In this document: positions 26,708 through 32,771 of the stretch, in pieces | Layout of the letters: the number at the start of each line of letters is the position of its first letter | How positions within the stretch are numbered: position 1 is the stretch's first letter | Source: Methanoregula formicica SMSP | GTDB lineage: Archaea; Halobacteriota; Methanomicrobia; Methanomicrobiales; Methanospirillaceae | Direction: 5' to 3' | Assembly: GCF_000327485.1 (NCBI RefSeq) | Contig: NC_019943.1 | Coordinates: forward strand, 744,001 to 808,000 | DNA length: 64,000 nt | The notes under the pieces: generated by a model | Seen by the model: only the letters and a program-made list of their open reading frames with translations | What the model was told of the DNA's origin: nothing | Databases searched by the model: none | Position numbers and translations under genes: made by a program

Positions 26708-27289
26708 TTAGTCCACGGTGAAGATCCCGCGGTTTGCATGGATCGCAAAGAAGCCGGACTCAGCCCCGGCATCGAGCCAGCCATGCCCGTAACTGAAGCA
26801 GGATAACGCGGTTTCCGTCCTTCCCGCCGAAACCTCGCGTTCTCCGTTCTGCAGGTAGACCCCGGCAATGAACAGCACCTGATCTGCAAAATTATAAGCG
26901 TGTGTCCCCGGGGCCGGTGCAGGGGTAACCGAGGCAAGGGCCGTTTTGAGGAGCCGCGCATACCGTTTGGTCTTCTCGTCCAGTTTCAGGAAGTGGGAGG
27001 TCGGCACATTCTCCACCGGAGCTGCAAACGGGCATTGGGGATTTTTTTCGGAACAAACCAGCAGGCCGGACGCGATGCCGCAATGGAGCCAGCCCAGGCC
27101 GTACAGGAAGGCTGCAAGGGCGTTGACCGGGTCATCGCCGGAAAGGAATGTTTTCCCGTCGCTCTCGTATGCAGACGCCATCCGGAGCACGGCCTGCCCG
27201 GTCCGCCAGAGCGGTGTCCCCTCCGGTGCACTGCACGTTGCCCGTGCAAGGGCCGATGCAAGCACTGTTGCGCATTCTGCGATCCTCAT
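26708..27289 (-). CDS. DUF357-family protein
   Basis: A 193-residue all-helical archaeal protein with two similar halves: [21 protein letters not shown]-type ([16 protein letters not shown]) and [20 protein letters not shown] with [16 protein letters not shown]. The repeat of an aromatic-G-x-G-W-L-(H/D)-(C/A)-G pattern is the DUF357 hallmark. Its start overlaps the dphB stop by 4 bases, so it is cotranscribed with diphthine synthase. No enzymatic role is known. Confidence 0.78.
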
Positions 27290-28035
27290 AGGCCGGCGAA
27301 CATCTCCAGGTACTCCCGCTCCATGTCGTGCAGTTCCGCTGGCACGATCAGGATATGGAGGGGCGGGCCGAAGTCGCAGGCCCTCACCAACTCTCCCGGC
27401 CCTGCCCGGACCACCGGCTCGTCGGATCCCGCCCGGGCAATGCCCACGTACAGCGGGATTTTTTCCTTCCGTGCAGCTGCCATCTCCTCCAGCAGGGCGA
27501 CGGCTTCCGGGACGGTCATGTACCGGTCGTCCTGGATATCGAGATAGACCAGCGTATGGAGCCGCTGGGACAGGTTTGCGAGGATGACGTCAAGGGGAGT
27601 GGTCGGGAACCAGTTCTTCTGCGGGAAGGGAAGGGAACAGGACTTCCCGAACCGGTAGTTCTGGAGCCCGGAGAGGCCGCAGACGGCGCTTGCGATGGAT
27701 GCGGCATGGATGATCGCTGTCGGTATCCCGCGGGACGCTGCCCGAATCCGGAGATCGGCATGGGTCGTCGAGACCATCGGGTCTCCCGCGCAGAGGAATA
27801 CCACGTCCTTTGTCGTGGCCTCTTCGAGCATAGCATCGGGGTCCTGTTCCACATCGGACCGGTACAGCGGAGTAACCGGCCGCCTGTAATACTGCTCGAG
27901 GCCCTCCCGTGTCGCACCCATGAGGCGCGAGGTGTAGCACTCAAGATAGACCCGGTCAGCGTTCCGGATGCGGGAGAGCCCTTTTTCCGATACGTCAGTT
28001 TTATCAAAGAGGCCAAGGCCGATGAAAGTCAGCAT
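27286..28035 (-). CDS. dphB: Diphthine synthase
   Basis: A 249-residue tetrapyrrole-methylase-fold enzyme: [50 protein letters not shown] and the SAM-site [21 protein letters not shown]. It trimethylates the 3-amino-3-carboxypropyl-histidine of translation elongation factor 2 on the way to diphthamide, a reaction confined to archaea and eukaryotes. It lies 17 bases downstream of the RecA-like/GTPase gene and is the third gene in a probable four-gene unit. Confidence 0.93.
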
Positions 28036-28051: not shown

Positions 28052-29218
28052 TCAGTACCTGAACTGCGTTATCGAATCCACAAGCGATTCAAGAACAAAA
28101 TTCACATCCGATTTCCGTATTGCCGAGATCTGGTAGAGGGGGATCTCGTCACCGATCGCGAGGGACCTCCTGATAAGGCCTGGATCGAGGGTTCCCGGAA
28201 GGTCGCTCTTGTTTGCCGCAACGGCAAACGGGATCCGCCGCCGTGCAATCATCTCGATCAGGAGGCGTGCACGGGGGAGCTGGTCTGCGTTTGTTGCATC
28301 GATGACAAGGAGTGCCCCCATCGCGTGCCCGAGATATGATGGCAGGAGAGAATCGAACCGCTCCTGCCCGGGCGTCCCGTACAGCGTGATGTCGAAGTCC
28401 TTCCACCGGATCCAGCCGAAATCCAGCGCAACCGTTGTCATGCTCCCCTCCTGTGCCATCCGGTCGACAGAGTGCCCGTCATCCGCGGCATTGAGGACAA
28501 ACGTTGATTTTCCCGACGAAGCCGGGCCCGTGACCACGATGCGGGGGATGTAGGGAATGACCCTCCCCTCGCCAATGATGAACGGGACCGAGCGGGCGGG
28601 CAGATCTGCCCACGAGGTATGGACGAGGGTGAAATAATTGAACTGCGGGAAGGGCCGGAACGATGAGCGGATGGCAAGGACGAGGTCAAAGTTCAGGTCC
28701 CTGATGACATGGTCGAGGAGCTGTTCCCCTTCCAGGTTCAGGTGCTCGATGACAAGCGTGATCTTCTTCTCCCTCTCCTGGGCCGAGGTGAAGATCGCGG
28801 CTGCGGCATCGGTCCCGAACTCCTCGTTCAAGAGATCGAAATAGACAAAGATGACGTCCACGTCATGCTCGCGGCAGAGTTTCCGGATCCGTGCCTGTAG
28901 TTCGCGTGCCCTGCCTTCCGGTGACTTGCTGCCCTTCTGGATCCGTTCCCAGTCAACAGAATCGAAGAAGGTGACCGGTGCCAGGGCAAGGTCGGGCCGG
29001 GCCCCGTACATCCTCTGTACATCGTTCCGGAATGCATCGACCGTTGTATTCGGCAGGACGACAAGGCAGGGGCGTTTCTTTGCCAGTGCACAGGACAGGG
29101 TTGAGATCATGAAAAGCTGGCCGTCGACCCCGGGCTCGAGGCTGTACAGGATCCTGCTGCCATCTGGAATGCCGCTTCCCAGCATCTCGTCAAGGCCGTT
29201 TATCCCGGTCGAGATCAT
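28052..29218 (-). CDS. RecA/KaiC-like pseudo-ATPase fused to a CvnD/Ras-like small GTPase
   Basis: A 388-residue fusion. Residues 1-220 resemble a KaiC lobe ([18 protein letters not shown]), but the P-loop position reads [10 protein letters not shown], without the GKT lysine. Residues 225-388 form a small GTPase: G1 GPASSGKST (231-239), G2-like TTVALDFG (261-268), G3 YGTPGQERF (280-288), G4 NKSD (336-339) and G5 SAI (365-367). The TTVALDFG and TPGQERF motifs are most like CvnD/MglA-type GTPases of prokaryotes. Its ATG overlaps the stop of the preceding RecA-like gene, giving a coupled pair. A regulatory switch is inferred. Confidence 0.85.
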
Positions 29219-29922
29219 GGGAGGATGGTCACCTGTCCCTTGGAGACGGAGAATTTCATCCAGTCCCCCGGCACGCCGGAAAGCCCGCGGATACGCATCA
29301 GGTTGATATTCTGCTCGACCTTGACCTCGATGACACAGGTCATCAGCTGCTTGATTAAGGAGAGTGTCTTTTCATCGAAGGATTCGCTGTTGAGGATGTA
29401 GACCCCCACACCTTCGATCTTCTTCAGTTTTGCCGTGAGCACGTGCAGGAACTGGTACAGGACTTCGAGCCTGCGGTACATCAGGAGGGTGGAGATGGAA
29501 TTGACACAGAAGCGTATCGGCGGCGGGAACAGGCCGGTCTCGCCGTCGGCAAAATTCCCCTCGAAAATCGTCTCTACCATGTTCGAGAACTTGATCCCGA
29601 TACCGGTCAGGTCCGTGGGACTGGAAACGAACATCAGCCGGGCGGTATCGGTGATGCCCGGTGTCGAGCTCTTGGTGATGGCATCGATTACCCCGGTGAA
29701 CCGCTTGTCGGCCCCGGCTACCTTGAATGCGTCGACCACTTCGGCAGCGCGTTCATTGGTCGAGAGGACGATGGCGTACTCGCCCGGTACCGGTTTTGTC
29801 AGTGCATAGGCCAGCTGGTCGGCGGCACTCATGGGCGGAGCCAGGATCAGGATATTGGTGCCGGCATCAAAACCGCCGGATGCCTCGTCTATCTGCGCAA
29901 TTCCCGACTTATAGGTATACAT
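29215..29922 (-). CDS. RecA/KaiC-like protein with degenerate P-loop
   Basis: A 235-residue single RecA-like domain: TYKSGIAQIDEASGGFDAGTNILILAPP matches the KaiC N-terminus in pattern, but APPMSAADQLAY replaces the Walker A GKT. Later segments (GEYAIVLSTNERAAEVVDAF, IRFCVNSISTLLMYRRLEVLYQFLHVL, VGVYILNSESFDEKTLSLI) follow GvpD/KaiC-like halves. It is first in a unit with the RecA-GTPase fusion, dphB and DUF357. Nucleotide hydrolysis is unlikely; a scaffolding or sensing role with the partner is inferred. The ATG follows TATA-like sequence at about 29945. Confidence 0.78.
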   Translation of the reverse strand: MYTYKSGIAQIDEASGGFDAGTNILILAPPMSAADQLAYALTKPVPGEYAIVLSTNERAAEVVDAFKVAGADKRFTGVIDAITKSSTPGITDTARLMFVSSPTDLTGIGIKFSNMVETIFEGNFADGETGLFPPPIRFCVNSISTLLMYRRLEVLYQFLHVLTAKLKKIEGVGVYILNSESFDEKTLSLIKQLMTCVIEVKVEQNINLMRIRGLSGVPGDWMKFSVSKGQVTILP

Positions 29923-30075: not shown

Positions 30076-30792
30076 ATGGCGTCAGAGCAGCTGGAAGAAT
30101 ATCTTGAGAGTATCCTTGACATCGAGGAGAAGCACGGGATCGCGCGGACATCGGCGATCGCCAAATGCGTCAAGGTGGCACCTGCAAGCGTGACCGAAGC
30201 ACTCCAGGTGCTCTCCGACAAGGGCTTTGTGAAGTATGAGCCCTACAAGGGGGCAACCCTGACAGAGCAGGGCCGGGAGATGGCGCGGAAGGTGAAGCGC
30301 CGGCACCGTCTCCTCGAGGTCTTCTTAACCGATGTGCTCCATATCACGAGGGAAAATGTCCACGACGAAGCCTGTAAAATGGAGCACACGCTCTCGGATG
30401 AGACGGAGTGTGCGCTCTGTAAGCTGCTCAATGCCCCGGCCCGGTGCCCCCACGGCAGCCTGATCGAGGCCTGCGACCGGAAGGTGGAGAGCTGCTCGGC
30501 CTGTCTCGATGAAGGGCAGGCCCCGCCCGCGAGCGCCCGAAAAGAACCACTTCTTCCCGTCACCACTCTTGCTCCCGGTCAGAAAGGGACCATTGCATTC
30601 ATCCGGGGAGATACCGGTGTTGTCCAGCGGCTGACGGACCTTGGGCTCACCCTCAAAACCGAGGTCCAGCTCGTCAGGAAAGCCCCCCTTCTCGGGCCTG
30701 TCGAGATTGCAGTCCGGAAGACGAGACTTGCCATCGACCACGCTATCGCCGATCACATCTTTGTCACTCCCTGCGGAGAGAAGAGTAAATGA
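30076..30792 (+). CDS. DtxR/MntR-family metal-dependent repressor with FeoA-like C-terminal domain
   Basis: A 238-residue regulator. The winged helix (about 1-65) has EYLESILDIEEKHG, SVTEALQVLSDKGFVKYE. The metal-binding dimerisation domain (about 66-140) has HRLLEVFL, EACKMEHTLSDETECALCKLL and CPHG. A Cys-rich linker (CDRKVESCSACLDEG, about 133-148) follows, then an SH3-like FeoA domain (VTTLAPGQKGTIAFIRGDTG to the end). The gene overlaps feoB by 4 bases. Fe(II) as effector is inferred from that and from the two operator-like sites upstream; the linker cysteines might bind an additional metal or cluster. Confidence 0.9.
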   Translation: MASEQLEEYLESILDIEEKHGIARTSAIAKCVKVAPASVTEALQVLSDKGFVKYEPYKGATLTEQGREMARKVKRRHRLLEVFLTDVLHITRENVHDEACKMEHTLSDETECALCKLLNAPARCPHGSLIEACDRKVESCSACLDEGQAPPASARKEPLLPVTTLAPGQKGTIAFIRGDTGVVQRLTDLGLTLKTEVQLVRKAPLLGPVEIAVRKTRLAIDHAIADHIFVTPCGEKSK

Positions 30793-32771
30793 GCGGGTGC
30801 GAAGACTGCAGCGGGTGCGACCTCCTGCACCTGCCCGTGGACACAAAGGCGGAATACGTGGTGGCCCTTGCCGGCAATGCCAATGTCGGGAAGAGCGCGA
30901 CCTTCAACCAGCTCACCGGCGTTGACCAGGATATCGGCAACTGGCCGGGCAAGACGGTGGAACGGGCCGAGGCCCTCCTCCAGCACCGGGGCAGGCGGAT
31001 CCGCGTCATCGACCTCCCGGGCATCTACTCGATAAACGCGCTCTCGACAGAAGAGCAGGTGTCCCGCGAGTTCATTGCCCACGACCACCCGGACGTTGTC
31101 GTAAACGTCCTGGACTCATCAGCGCTCGAACGCAACCTCTTCTTCACGCTCCAGCTCACGGAACTGGAAAGCCCGCTCGTGATTGCTTTAAACCAGGCGG
31201 ACCTTGCGGCAAAGAAGGGTATTATCCTCGATGCAGGGAAACTCTCCGCAATTCTTGGCGTCCCAGTCATCCCGACTGTGGCGATCCAGGGAAAGGGGAT
31301 AGCTGAACTCTCGGATGCAATTGTCCGTGCAACCTGCTCCCGGCCCCGCCCGAAGACCATCCGGTACGGGAAAGAGGTCGAGGACCGAATCGCCCGGATC
31401 CTGGCCCTGCTTCCCGAGGGATCCGGGGGCTACCCGTCCCGCTGGACGGCAATCAAGCTGCTGGAAGGCGATCCTGACACGGTCTGGGAAGTCCGGCAGC
31501 ATTCTCCCGGCGTGGCAGCCGCTGCCCTTGAGTCCGGCCGCGAACTGGAGAAGATACACGGGGAGCCGGCAGCAACGGTCATGAGTGCAGAGCGGTACCA
31601 TGCTGCTGAAGAACTGGCCGCAGCGGTCATGGAGATCCGGTCGCCGGGGGACAACGAGATCACCCTCACCGAGAAGGTCGACCGCATCGCGCTCCACCCC
31701 GTTCTGGGGTACCTCCTCCTTGCCGCCACGCTCGGCGGGCTGCTTGTCTGGACGTTTGTCATCGGTGCCTGGATCTCCGGCGTCCTGATGGAGTTTTTGT
31801 CGGGCATCGCCCCGGTCGAACCCCTGATCACGGGATCCCTTCCGGATATCATCTTCAACGGTGCATGGACGGGTTTTGTCGCCGCCCTCACGCTTATCGT
31901 GCCTTACGTCATCCCCTTCTACCTCGTCCTTGCCCTGATCGAGGACTCCGGGTTCCTCACCCGCTTCTCCCTCATGCTCGACAAGGGGATGCACCGCATG
32001 GGGCTGCACGGCAAGGCCATCATCCCGCTCGTGCTCGGGTTTGGCTGCACCGTGCCGGCCTGCCTCTCGTGCCGGATCATCGAATCCCCCAAGCAGAAAC
32101 TGATCGCGGCATTCCTGGTCACGCTCATCCCCTGCTCGGCCCGGACCATCGTGATTCTCGGCGTTGTTGCCGTGTTTGTGAATATCTGGTGGGCACTTTT
32201 CCTGTACCTGCTTGTTTTTGTCCTGATCGTGGTCCTCGGGCGGCTCGCATTCCGGCTGCTGCCCGGGGAATCGGTGGGCATGATCATGGAGATGCCGGAC
32301 TACCATGTCCCCCACGTAAAAGGGGTGCTCGGCCAGACCTGGCAGCGGACCCGGTCGCTCATCGGGATCGTGCTTCCGGCCTACATTATCGGGAGCATCG
32401 TCATCACTGGGGCCTATGCCGCCGGGCTCCTTGAACCCATCAACGCGGCACTCTATCCCGTCACCGTGATCCTGCTGGGCCTCCCGGCCATGACCGGCGT
32501 TGTGTTCATCTTCGGCATCATCCGGAAGGAGATGACCATCCTCGCCCTTGCGGCGATTCTCGGGACAACCGTCTTCTCAGACGTCCTCACCCCGGTCCAG
32601 ATCATCGTCTTCGGGCTCGTGACCCTGCTCTACGCCCCGTGCATCTCCACGATCCTCGCGCTGGCAAAGGAGTTCGGCTGGAAGGCGGCGCTCTCGATCA
32701 CAGCGCTCGAGACCAGCCTTGCAATCGCACTCGGCGCACTTCTGTTCCACCTCATCGGCCCCTTCCTCTGA
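30789..32771 (+). CDS. feoB: Ferrous iron transporter FeoB
   Basis: A 660-residue GTPase-membrane fusion. The N-terminus has an extra CxxC-type cluster (CEDCSGCDLLHL). The G domain follows: G1 GNANVGKSATFNQ, G3 DLPGIYS and G4 NQAD, with the typical GNWPGKTVE switch. From about residue 295 there are some eight transmembrane helices, including PLVLGFGCTVPACLSCRI and the second Gate motif SARTIVILGVVAVF. FeoB imports Fe(II). It follows the DtxR-FeoA gene with an ATGA overlap. The G4 motif is NQAD rather than NKxD, as in many FeoB proteins with relaxed specificity. Confidence 0.94.
   Translation: MSGCEDCSGCDLLHLPVDTKAEYVVALAGNANVGKSATFNQLTGVDQDIGNWPGKTVERAEALLQHRGRRIRVIDLPGIYSINALSTEEQVSREFIAHDHPDVVVNVLDSSALERNLFFTLQLTELESPLVIALNQADLAAKKGIILDAGKLSAILGVPVIPTVAIQGKGIAELSDAIVRATCSRPRPKTIRYGKEVEDRIARILALLPEGSGGYPSRWTAIKLLEGDPDTVWEVRQHSPGVAAAALESGRELEKIHGEPAATVMSAERYHAAEELAAAVMEIRSPGDNEITLTEKVDRIALHPVLGYLLLAATLGGLLVWTFVIGAWISGVLMEFLSGIAPVEPLITGSLPDIIFNGAWTGFVAALTLIVPYVIPFYLVLALIEDSGFLTRFSLMLDKGMHRMGLHGKAIIPLVLGFGCTVPACLSCRIIESPKQKLIAAFLVTLIPCSARTIVILGVVAVFVNIWWALFLYLLVFVLIVVLGRLAFRLLPGESVGMIMEMPDYHVPHVKGVLGQTWQRTRSLIGIVLPAYIIGSIVITGAYAAGLLEPINAALYPVTVILLGLPAMTGVVFIFGIIRKEMTILALAAILGTTVFSDVLTPVQIIVFGLVTLLYAPCISTILALAKEFGWKAALSITALETSLAIALGALLFHLIGPFL

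Follow-up and report, generated by a model that had tools for sequence, protein, structure and literature searches.

Our analysis suggests that two adjoining genes of Methanoregula formicica SMSP, here called A and B, are probably the version found in Methanomicrobiales of an ancient archaeal GTPase cassette, B - A - Roadblock/LC7 (with V4R in one family), that has been losing parts. The genes lie in a window of 64,000 nucleotides (NC_019943.1, positions 744,001 to 808,000), by which we mean the whole stretch of DNA that was analysed. An initial annotation of the sequence had described A and B as overlapping by four bases upstream of dphB and DUF357, and this was confirmed by the reading frames and by NCBIfam and Pfam matches. 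The DtxR-FeoA/feoB pair upstream of B was not mentioned there. We consider dph5 to be probably context and not part of the module, and DUF357 to be context as well.

Table. Features of the A/B locus, with positions counted from the first nucleotide of the window; "order" is Methanomicrobiales and "outgroup" the related families outside it
Feature	Position	Strand	Remarks
Gene B, 235 aa, KaiC-fold protein without Walker A (Pfam DUF7504)	29215..29922	-	235-codon frame
Gene A, 388 aa, P-loop-less KaiC lobe and MglA-type small GTPase	28052..29218	-	open 388-codon frame
Overlap of B stop and A start, 4 nt, ATGA	29215..29218	-	
dph5/dphB (diphthine synthase), constant downstream neighbour	27286..28035	-	NCBIfam TIGR00522, 1.3e-85
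DUF357 gene, next after dph5 downstream	26708..27289	-	Pfam, 7e-48
DtxR-FeoA and feoB, divergent, directly upstream of the pair	30076..32771	+	
Site of lost Walker A in B, residues 28-38, APPMSAADQLA	29809..29841	-	
N-terminal pseudo-KaiC lobe of A, residues 1-222	28553..29218	-	
Site of lost Walker A in A, residues 25-36	29111..29146	-	alignment
Small GTPase domain of A, residues 224-385	28064..28549	-	
G1 P-loop GPASSGKST, residues 231-239	28502..28528	-	intact in 50/50 order and 39/39 outgroup
G3 GTPGQ (GTPGQERF), residues 281-285	28364..28378	-	Gln in 40/50 order and 38/39 outgroup
G4 NKSD, residues 336-339	28202..28213	-	NKxD in 39/50 order and 39/39 outgroup

Both RecA-like domains had been said to lack the Walker A GKT. 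This was borne out, and models computed from the window proteins aligned with named relatives point to a KaiC fold in each. The A model had a pLDDT of 86.5, and its first 225 residues matched KaiC with Z 22.6 and rmsd 2.5 over 207 aligned residues; Pfam KaiC matched residues 2-117 weakly (20.3, under the cut-off of 26.6). The B model (pLDDT 92.8) matched PH0284 with Z 23.2 and rmsd 2.4 over 212 aligned residues. At the level of profiles, B belonged to DUF7504 (94.3 bits, cut-off 27), and Pfam KaiC was reached at an E value of 0.018 only. When B and the A lobe were compared by hhalign, close paralogy received a probability of 15% over 36 columns, so we claim a shared fold alone.

The A lobes were compared in 50 full-length proteins of the order (loci L001-L050; L051-L056 were dropped as the same places again) and in 39 outgroup loci from 37 genomes, some rows of family f9 being near-identical. 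GK[ST] was found at the Walker A site in none of the 50 order lobes and none of the 39 outgroup lobes (0/89). In its place the outgroup lobes carry a PGVEGDVF-type loop. The replacing loop is conserved in both sets, at Pro29 (47/50 order, 38/39 outgroup), Gly33 (49/50 and 33/39) and Phe36 (45/50 and 39/39). Such conservation would be expected if the lobe were not dead and still formed a pocket for ATP or another ligand with an unusual loop (PGVxGxxF), but GK[ST] is absent from all 89 lobes and we consider this reading very improbable. Most likely, judging from the alignments, the A lobe lost its P-loop before the order and the outgroup families split.

The history of B is different. None of the 67 aligned order B proteins has the Walker A GK (the broken or cut B of L075, L086 and L089 were dropped from this set). 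Since the motif is missing from every A lobe as well, its loss is not a matter of chance or error. Outgroup B proteins read GPPLVGKS or GPPMSGKE at this site. Among the 33 that could be assessed, with L214 set aside at a contig end, 12 carry the canonical GxxxxGK[ST] together with the Walker B Asp, and in 18 the residue after GK is a different one, in most cases Glu or Asp; GK is thus kept in 30 and absent in three. All 12 canonical proteins come from family f9. The PCNA of this family matches PDB 1rwz, which we take to be from Archaeoglobus fulgidus, along its whole length, and f9 is therefore probably Archaeoglobaceae. Because outgroup B often keeps its P-loop, the loss of the motif from B in Methanomicrobiales is derived. 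B most likely descends, on this sequence comparison, from a P-loop protein that lost nucleotide binding by steps, and the B of the window is a probable non-binding partner. Conservation of the Walker A loss, which the initial annotation had suggested checking by alignment, thus holds for all A lobes compared and, for B, for the aligned proteins of the order. In four genomes of the survey, B contains a stop, is broken or is fragmentary (G037, loci L075/L094; G113, L086; G016, L088; G003, L089).

The GTPase domain has retained more. Residues 226-384 of A, a GTPase of Ras/Roc/Arf type, matched Pfam Ras (38.6 bits, cut-off 21.6), the modelled domain matched Arl2 with Z 20.8 and rmsd 2.3 over 150 aligned residues, and its PDB matches were Rab, Arf/Arl and MglA. 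G1, the TPGQERF of G3 and the NKSD of G4 are all present in A, as had been reported. GTPG of G3 was found in 46/50 order and 38/39 outgroup proteins; the G3 Gln is missing in 10/50 order proteins versus 1/39 in the outgroup, and NKxD in 11/50 versus 0/39, so that 17 of the 50 order proteins lack one or the other. Since the window protein has kept all GTPase motifs, it probably still switches on GTP. In a tree of 17 of the 50 order proteins, 20 of the 39 outgroup proteins and 15 stand-alone archaeal GTPases, the fused GTPases formed one side of a branch (SH-aLRT 95), which fits a single origin of the fusion.

Beyond the order, a profile built from just the A lobe retrieved 390-aa proteins elsewhere in the phylum that are the same fusion. 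A full-length A profile reached 92 of 392 genomes at 1e-25, many of them through stand-alone GTPases, and 39 loci with the full-length fusion, from 12 families, were selected for study. In 34 of these, B was the gene immediately upstream, on the strand of A. In the remaining five, there was no B (L206), the contig ended (L230) or the locus belonged to a paralogous set (L224-L226). This set, in family f29, has a second A-type fusion with a Roadblock gene upstream and a 229-aa KaiC-like gene downstream instead of B; in L225 the latter matched Pfam KaiC at 1.7e-30 and has an intact GPPKCGKS.

A Roadblock/LC7 gene adjoined A in 37 of the 39 outgroup loci (32 directly downstream, five upstream). 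One further locus, L223, encodes a single 546-aa protein made of KaiC (Pfam, 31-163), GTPase and Robl (434-520), and from this fusion contact between A and Roadblock is predicted. Roadblock is thus linked or fused in 38/39 loci, and the 39th stretch ends 85 nt past A. The cassette Roadblock proteins have about 121-137 aa and match Pfam Roadblock/LC7 (3.1e-18); their PDB relatives include CvnB5 and MglB, and the Asp-Gly pair is present in 34/39 rows. In family f9, a V4R gene (Pfam, 3.1e-13) followed Roadblock in 14 of 15 loci with profile E values of 1e-78 or better; at the fifteenth, L214, the profile matched weakly (9e-7) at a distance of 970 nt. Of the loci later found, 10 had served to train the Roadblock profile and 4 the V4R profile, and those matches are by construction. 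An independent Pfam check recovered Roadblock in L193, L211, L225 and L223 and V4R in L211 and L199.

Within the order, the pair was traced in 149 relatives and in 69 named loci from one scan with B, which include Methanoregula, Methanolinea, Methanoculleus, Methanocalculus, Methanospirillum, Methanofollis and others. In 40 of the 69, A comes after B, with an overlap of 4 nt in 37 and 1 nt in three, and wherever A exists B is directly upstream (40/40). Together with the 34/39 outgroup loci, this shows that the genes are not separate and unlinked in most relatives that have A; the pair is conserved, and the earlier idea of a signalling module was supported. A is missing from 28/69 loci, where dph5 begins 5-196 nt past B, and one locus is cut off. 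A trace of such a loss is seen in Methanoregula sp. PtaB.Bin085 (L101, the same as L074), where an 83-aa frame matching residues 1-38 of A remains between B and dph5. The sole match of the named scan outside Methanomicrobiales was a B relative without A in the haloarchaeon Candidatus Halobonum tyrrellensis (L160, 31% identity). A profile search of the order loci examined, the window included, found no Roadblock close to A or B. Involvement in an anti-phage system was considered and rejected, as neither A nor B had a PADLOC match.

Upstream of B in the order, feoB is on B's strand in 49/69 named loci, divergent in six, absent in 10 (each with at least 2.5 kb of upstream sequence) and unknowable in four; downstream, dph5 is next in nearly all. 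The order pair therefore lies mostly between an iron-uptake operon and dph5. Two feoB types share the place upstream of B (L091-L159), possibly through in-place replacement: one is 63-95% identical and stands divergent or at about 145 nt from B, and the other (about 35%) is mostly 2-19 nt upstream on B's strand.

This arrangement gives rise to the main rival explanation, in which B is the working part in Methanomicrobiales, with a job of its own as an accessory to either the ferrous iron (Feo) operon or diphthamide synthesis, and A would be a passenger in decay. It would account for the 46/69 loci in which 2-19 nt separate B from the end of a feoB gene on its own strand, for the constancy of dph5, for the 28 loci in which B is kept without A, and for the 17/50 A proteins with a lost G3 Gln or NKxD. 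Indeed, the loci without A indicate that B has to serve some purpose independent of this GTPase. However, 10 of the 69 loci have no feoB next to B, and in the outgroup the sequence retrieved around the pair contained no feoB and no dph5. Moreover, G1 of A is intact in 50/50 order proteins, so A is not simply decaying. On balance we regard this explanation as unlikely, and retain the reading of a cassette that is losing parts. Downstream of some outgroup cassettes we observed a siroheme decarboxylase (L211 and L216, both f9), an NAD_binding_7 (Pfam) protein that is presumably precorrin-2-dehydrogenase-like (L211) and a radical SAM-SPASM protein (L205 of f37, L193 of f19). These genes and the feoB of the order may reflect an iron or heme theme, or plain synteny.

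The initial annotation had raised the possibility that the two proteins form a complex with a scaffold of two pseudo-ATPase lobes and with GTP as the sole nucleotide switch; we take this scaffold as a fixed one. As a description of the motifs in the window and in the Methanomicrobiales that contain A, this is accurate as they stand, and the lobes are indeed pseudo-KaiC lobes. As a general model it is improbable. The scaffold of two dead lobes is a derived state, B having kept GK in most outgroup proteins; because the loss in A is old and that in B is not, the symmetrical picture is a late one. A single GTP switch agrees with the window but does not hold as a general rule, given the motif losses in A and the loci that lack A altogether. 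The two-protein complex also omitted the regulator, Roadblock, that accompanies the outgroup pair in all but one locus.

The Roadblock belonging to the pair may have moved about 190 kb away in the genome of the window. Three Roadblock genes are present in this genome, none of them within the window, and the member of Roadblock family I (C1:1000341-1000700) is the candidate. Family I is present in 112 of the 149 relatives, in 76/81 genomes with B versus 36/68 without B (Fisher 6.7e-9, a value that ignores relatedness). Five B genomes are without it: four are fragmented or incomplete (G014, G054, G055 and G065), and in G003 B itself is a fragment. In all 11 loci examined, family I is followed by a REC-type response regulator, with an overlap of 1-4 nt. 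In the window genome (L231:2965-4729, C1:1000341-1002105) it overlaps a REC-MetOD2 gene, a second REC-MetOD2 gene adjoins, and a MinD-like ATPase gene is divergent upstream; MetOD2 is the Pfam output domain of both regulators. According to the available part of PMC5847659, MetOD2 occurs only in Methanocellales and Methanomicrobiales and is guessed to be a nucleic-acid-binding HTH module.

We keep orthology of family I with the cassette Roadblock as a lead only. A first quick tree nested family I inside the cassette set; in a careful tree without long branches, the two were weakly grouped (75/82), and the alternative was not rejected (p-AU 0.25). This tree left out L205, L209, L222, L223, L227, L228, L239 and L243, the second L199 copy and five second family II copies. 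Stand-alone GTPases are present in the same genomes as family I and could be its partner. Should family I nevertheless serve A, a response regulator would feed the GTPase by analogy with Myxococcus, where RomR, according to the part of the literature available, feeds MglA.

Based on these observations, we predict that the A lobe and B would together make up a single KaiC-fold platform carrying the GTPase. A Roadblock dimer would set the GTP/GDP state of A, as MglB does for MglA, with a sensor feeding in (V4R in one family, perhaps the REC-MetOD2 response regulator in the order), and GTP-bound A would then act on a target. In Methanomicrobiales, the P-loop of B is gone and Roadblock is unlinked (moved or lost). 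A is, by its sequences, eroding or gone in several lineages. More tentatively, and with somewhat less than even confidence, we propose that a complex of this kind predates the split of many families of the phylum: a Ras-like GTPase on a dead KaiC lobe together with a living or dying KaiC-like ATPase, regulated by Roadblock and, in one family, V4R, co-encoded, and dismantled stepwise in Methanomicrobiales.

If so, the co-encoded regulators would be related to Ragulator/MglB and to the TRAPP core subunit Bet3, and archaeal KaiC signalling proteins would be tied to GTPase control of the MglA/Rab type. Archaeal KaiC-like proteins have been called signalling hubs, mostly without known partners, and the cassette gives them a concrete partner set. 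It does the same for archaeal Group 4 MglA, for which the available part of PMC4316618 describes no conserved neighbours. If V4R acts on the GTPase, the f9 set would amount to a compact prokaryotic equivalent of control by GTPase, Roadblock and a Bet3-like protein. Furthermore, the graded loss of A and of the B P-loop lets one ask which parts need which. We found no account of the fusion or the cassette in the literature titles, abstracts and passages available, and Makarova et al. 2017 (mBio) may hold one.

Among known systems, MglA/MglB Groups 2-5, which include CvnD/CvnB, are similar to the cassette in several respects. According to the available text of PMC4316618, these groups are marked by GTPGQ in G3 (instead of DxxGQ) and by a coupled MglB with an Asp-Gly pair. 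A shares the first feature, in support of the initial assignment to CvnD/MglA-like GTPases, and the outgroup cassette shares the second. Groups 2-5 also have Thr-Thr in the G2 region, one Thr replacing the Arg of Group 1; the window protein has T261-T262, with T262 in 44/50 order and 39/39 outgroup proteins. In contrast, the MglA family is single-domain (150-240 aa, sequences above 240 aa having been left out of PMC4316618), whereas A has 388 aa with a KaiC lobe. The coupled MglB gene is likewise absent from the order loci but present in 38/39 outgroup loci, and B is a constant neighbour, unlike anything the same text gives for archaeal Group 4 MglA. We have not filed A as an MglA because it exceeds the size limit of these families and, in the window, lacks their gene linkage; nevertheless, A probably works like MglA, whose partner MglB is called both GAP and GEF in Myxococcus (PMC11016934, as far as available). 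The actinobacterial conservon CvnABCD (CvnA kinase, CvnB Roadblock, CvnC and CvnD) differs from the window pair, which has no adjoining Roadblock and whose called neighbours are dph5, DUF357 and feo genes.

The lobes resemble RecA-fold ATPases of the KaiC/PH0284 type in their modelled fold (Z 20-23), but they lack Walker A and there is no second KaiC domain. Both fit the known idea of inactivated KaiC-like proteins. Like the A lobe and B, iKaiC (PMC5847659, in its available part) has a KaiC fold with lost catalytic motifs and is linked to a signalling domain; in A the joined domain is a GTPase, a word not present in the main text of that paper, and the pair comes with Roadblock. Finally, the V4R of f9 belongs to a family related to the TRAPP subunit Bet3 (PMC2253512, available part), and the Asgard GTPase-Roadblock-TRAPPC3 sets (PMC10933270) likewise place a small GTPase, Roadblock and V4R (a Bet3/TRAPPC3 relative) in one archaeal cell. 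The Asgard genes are, in the available part of that paper, generally not in operons, whereas the f9 genes are neighbours and are accompanied by KaiC-fold parts.
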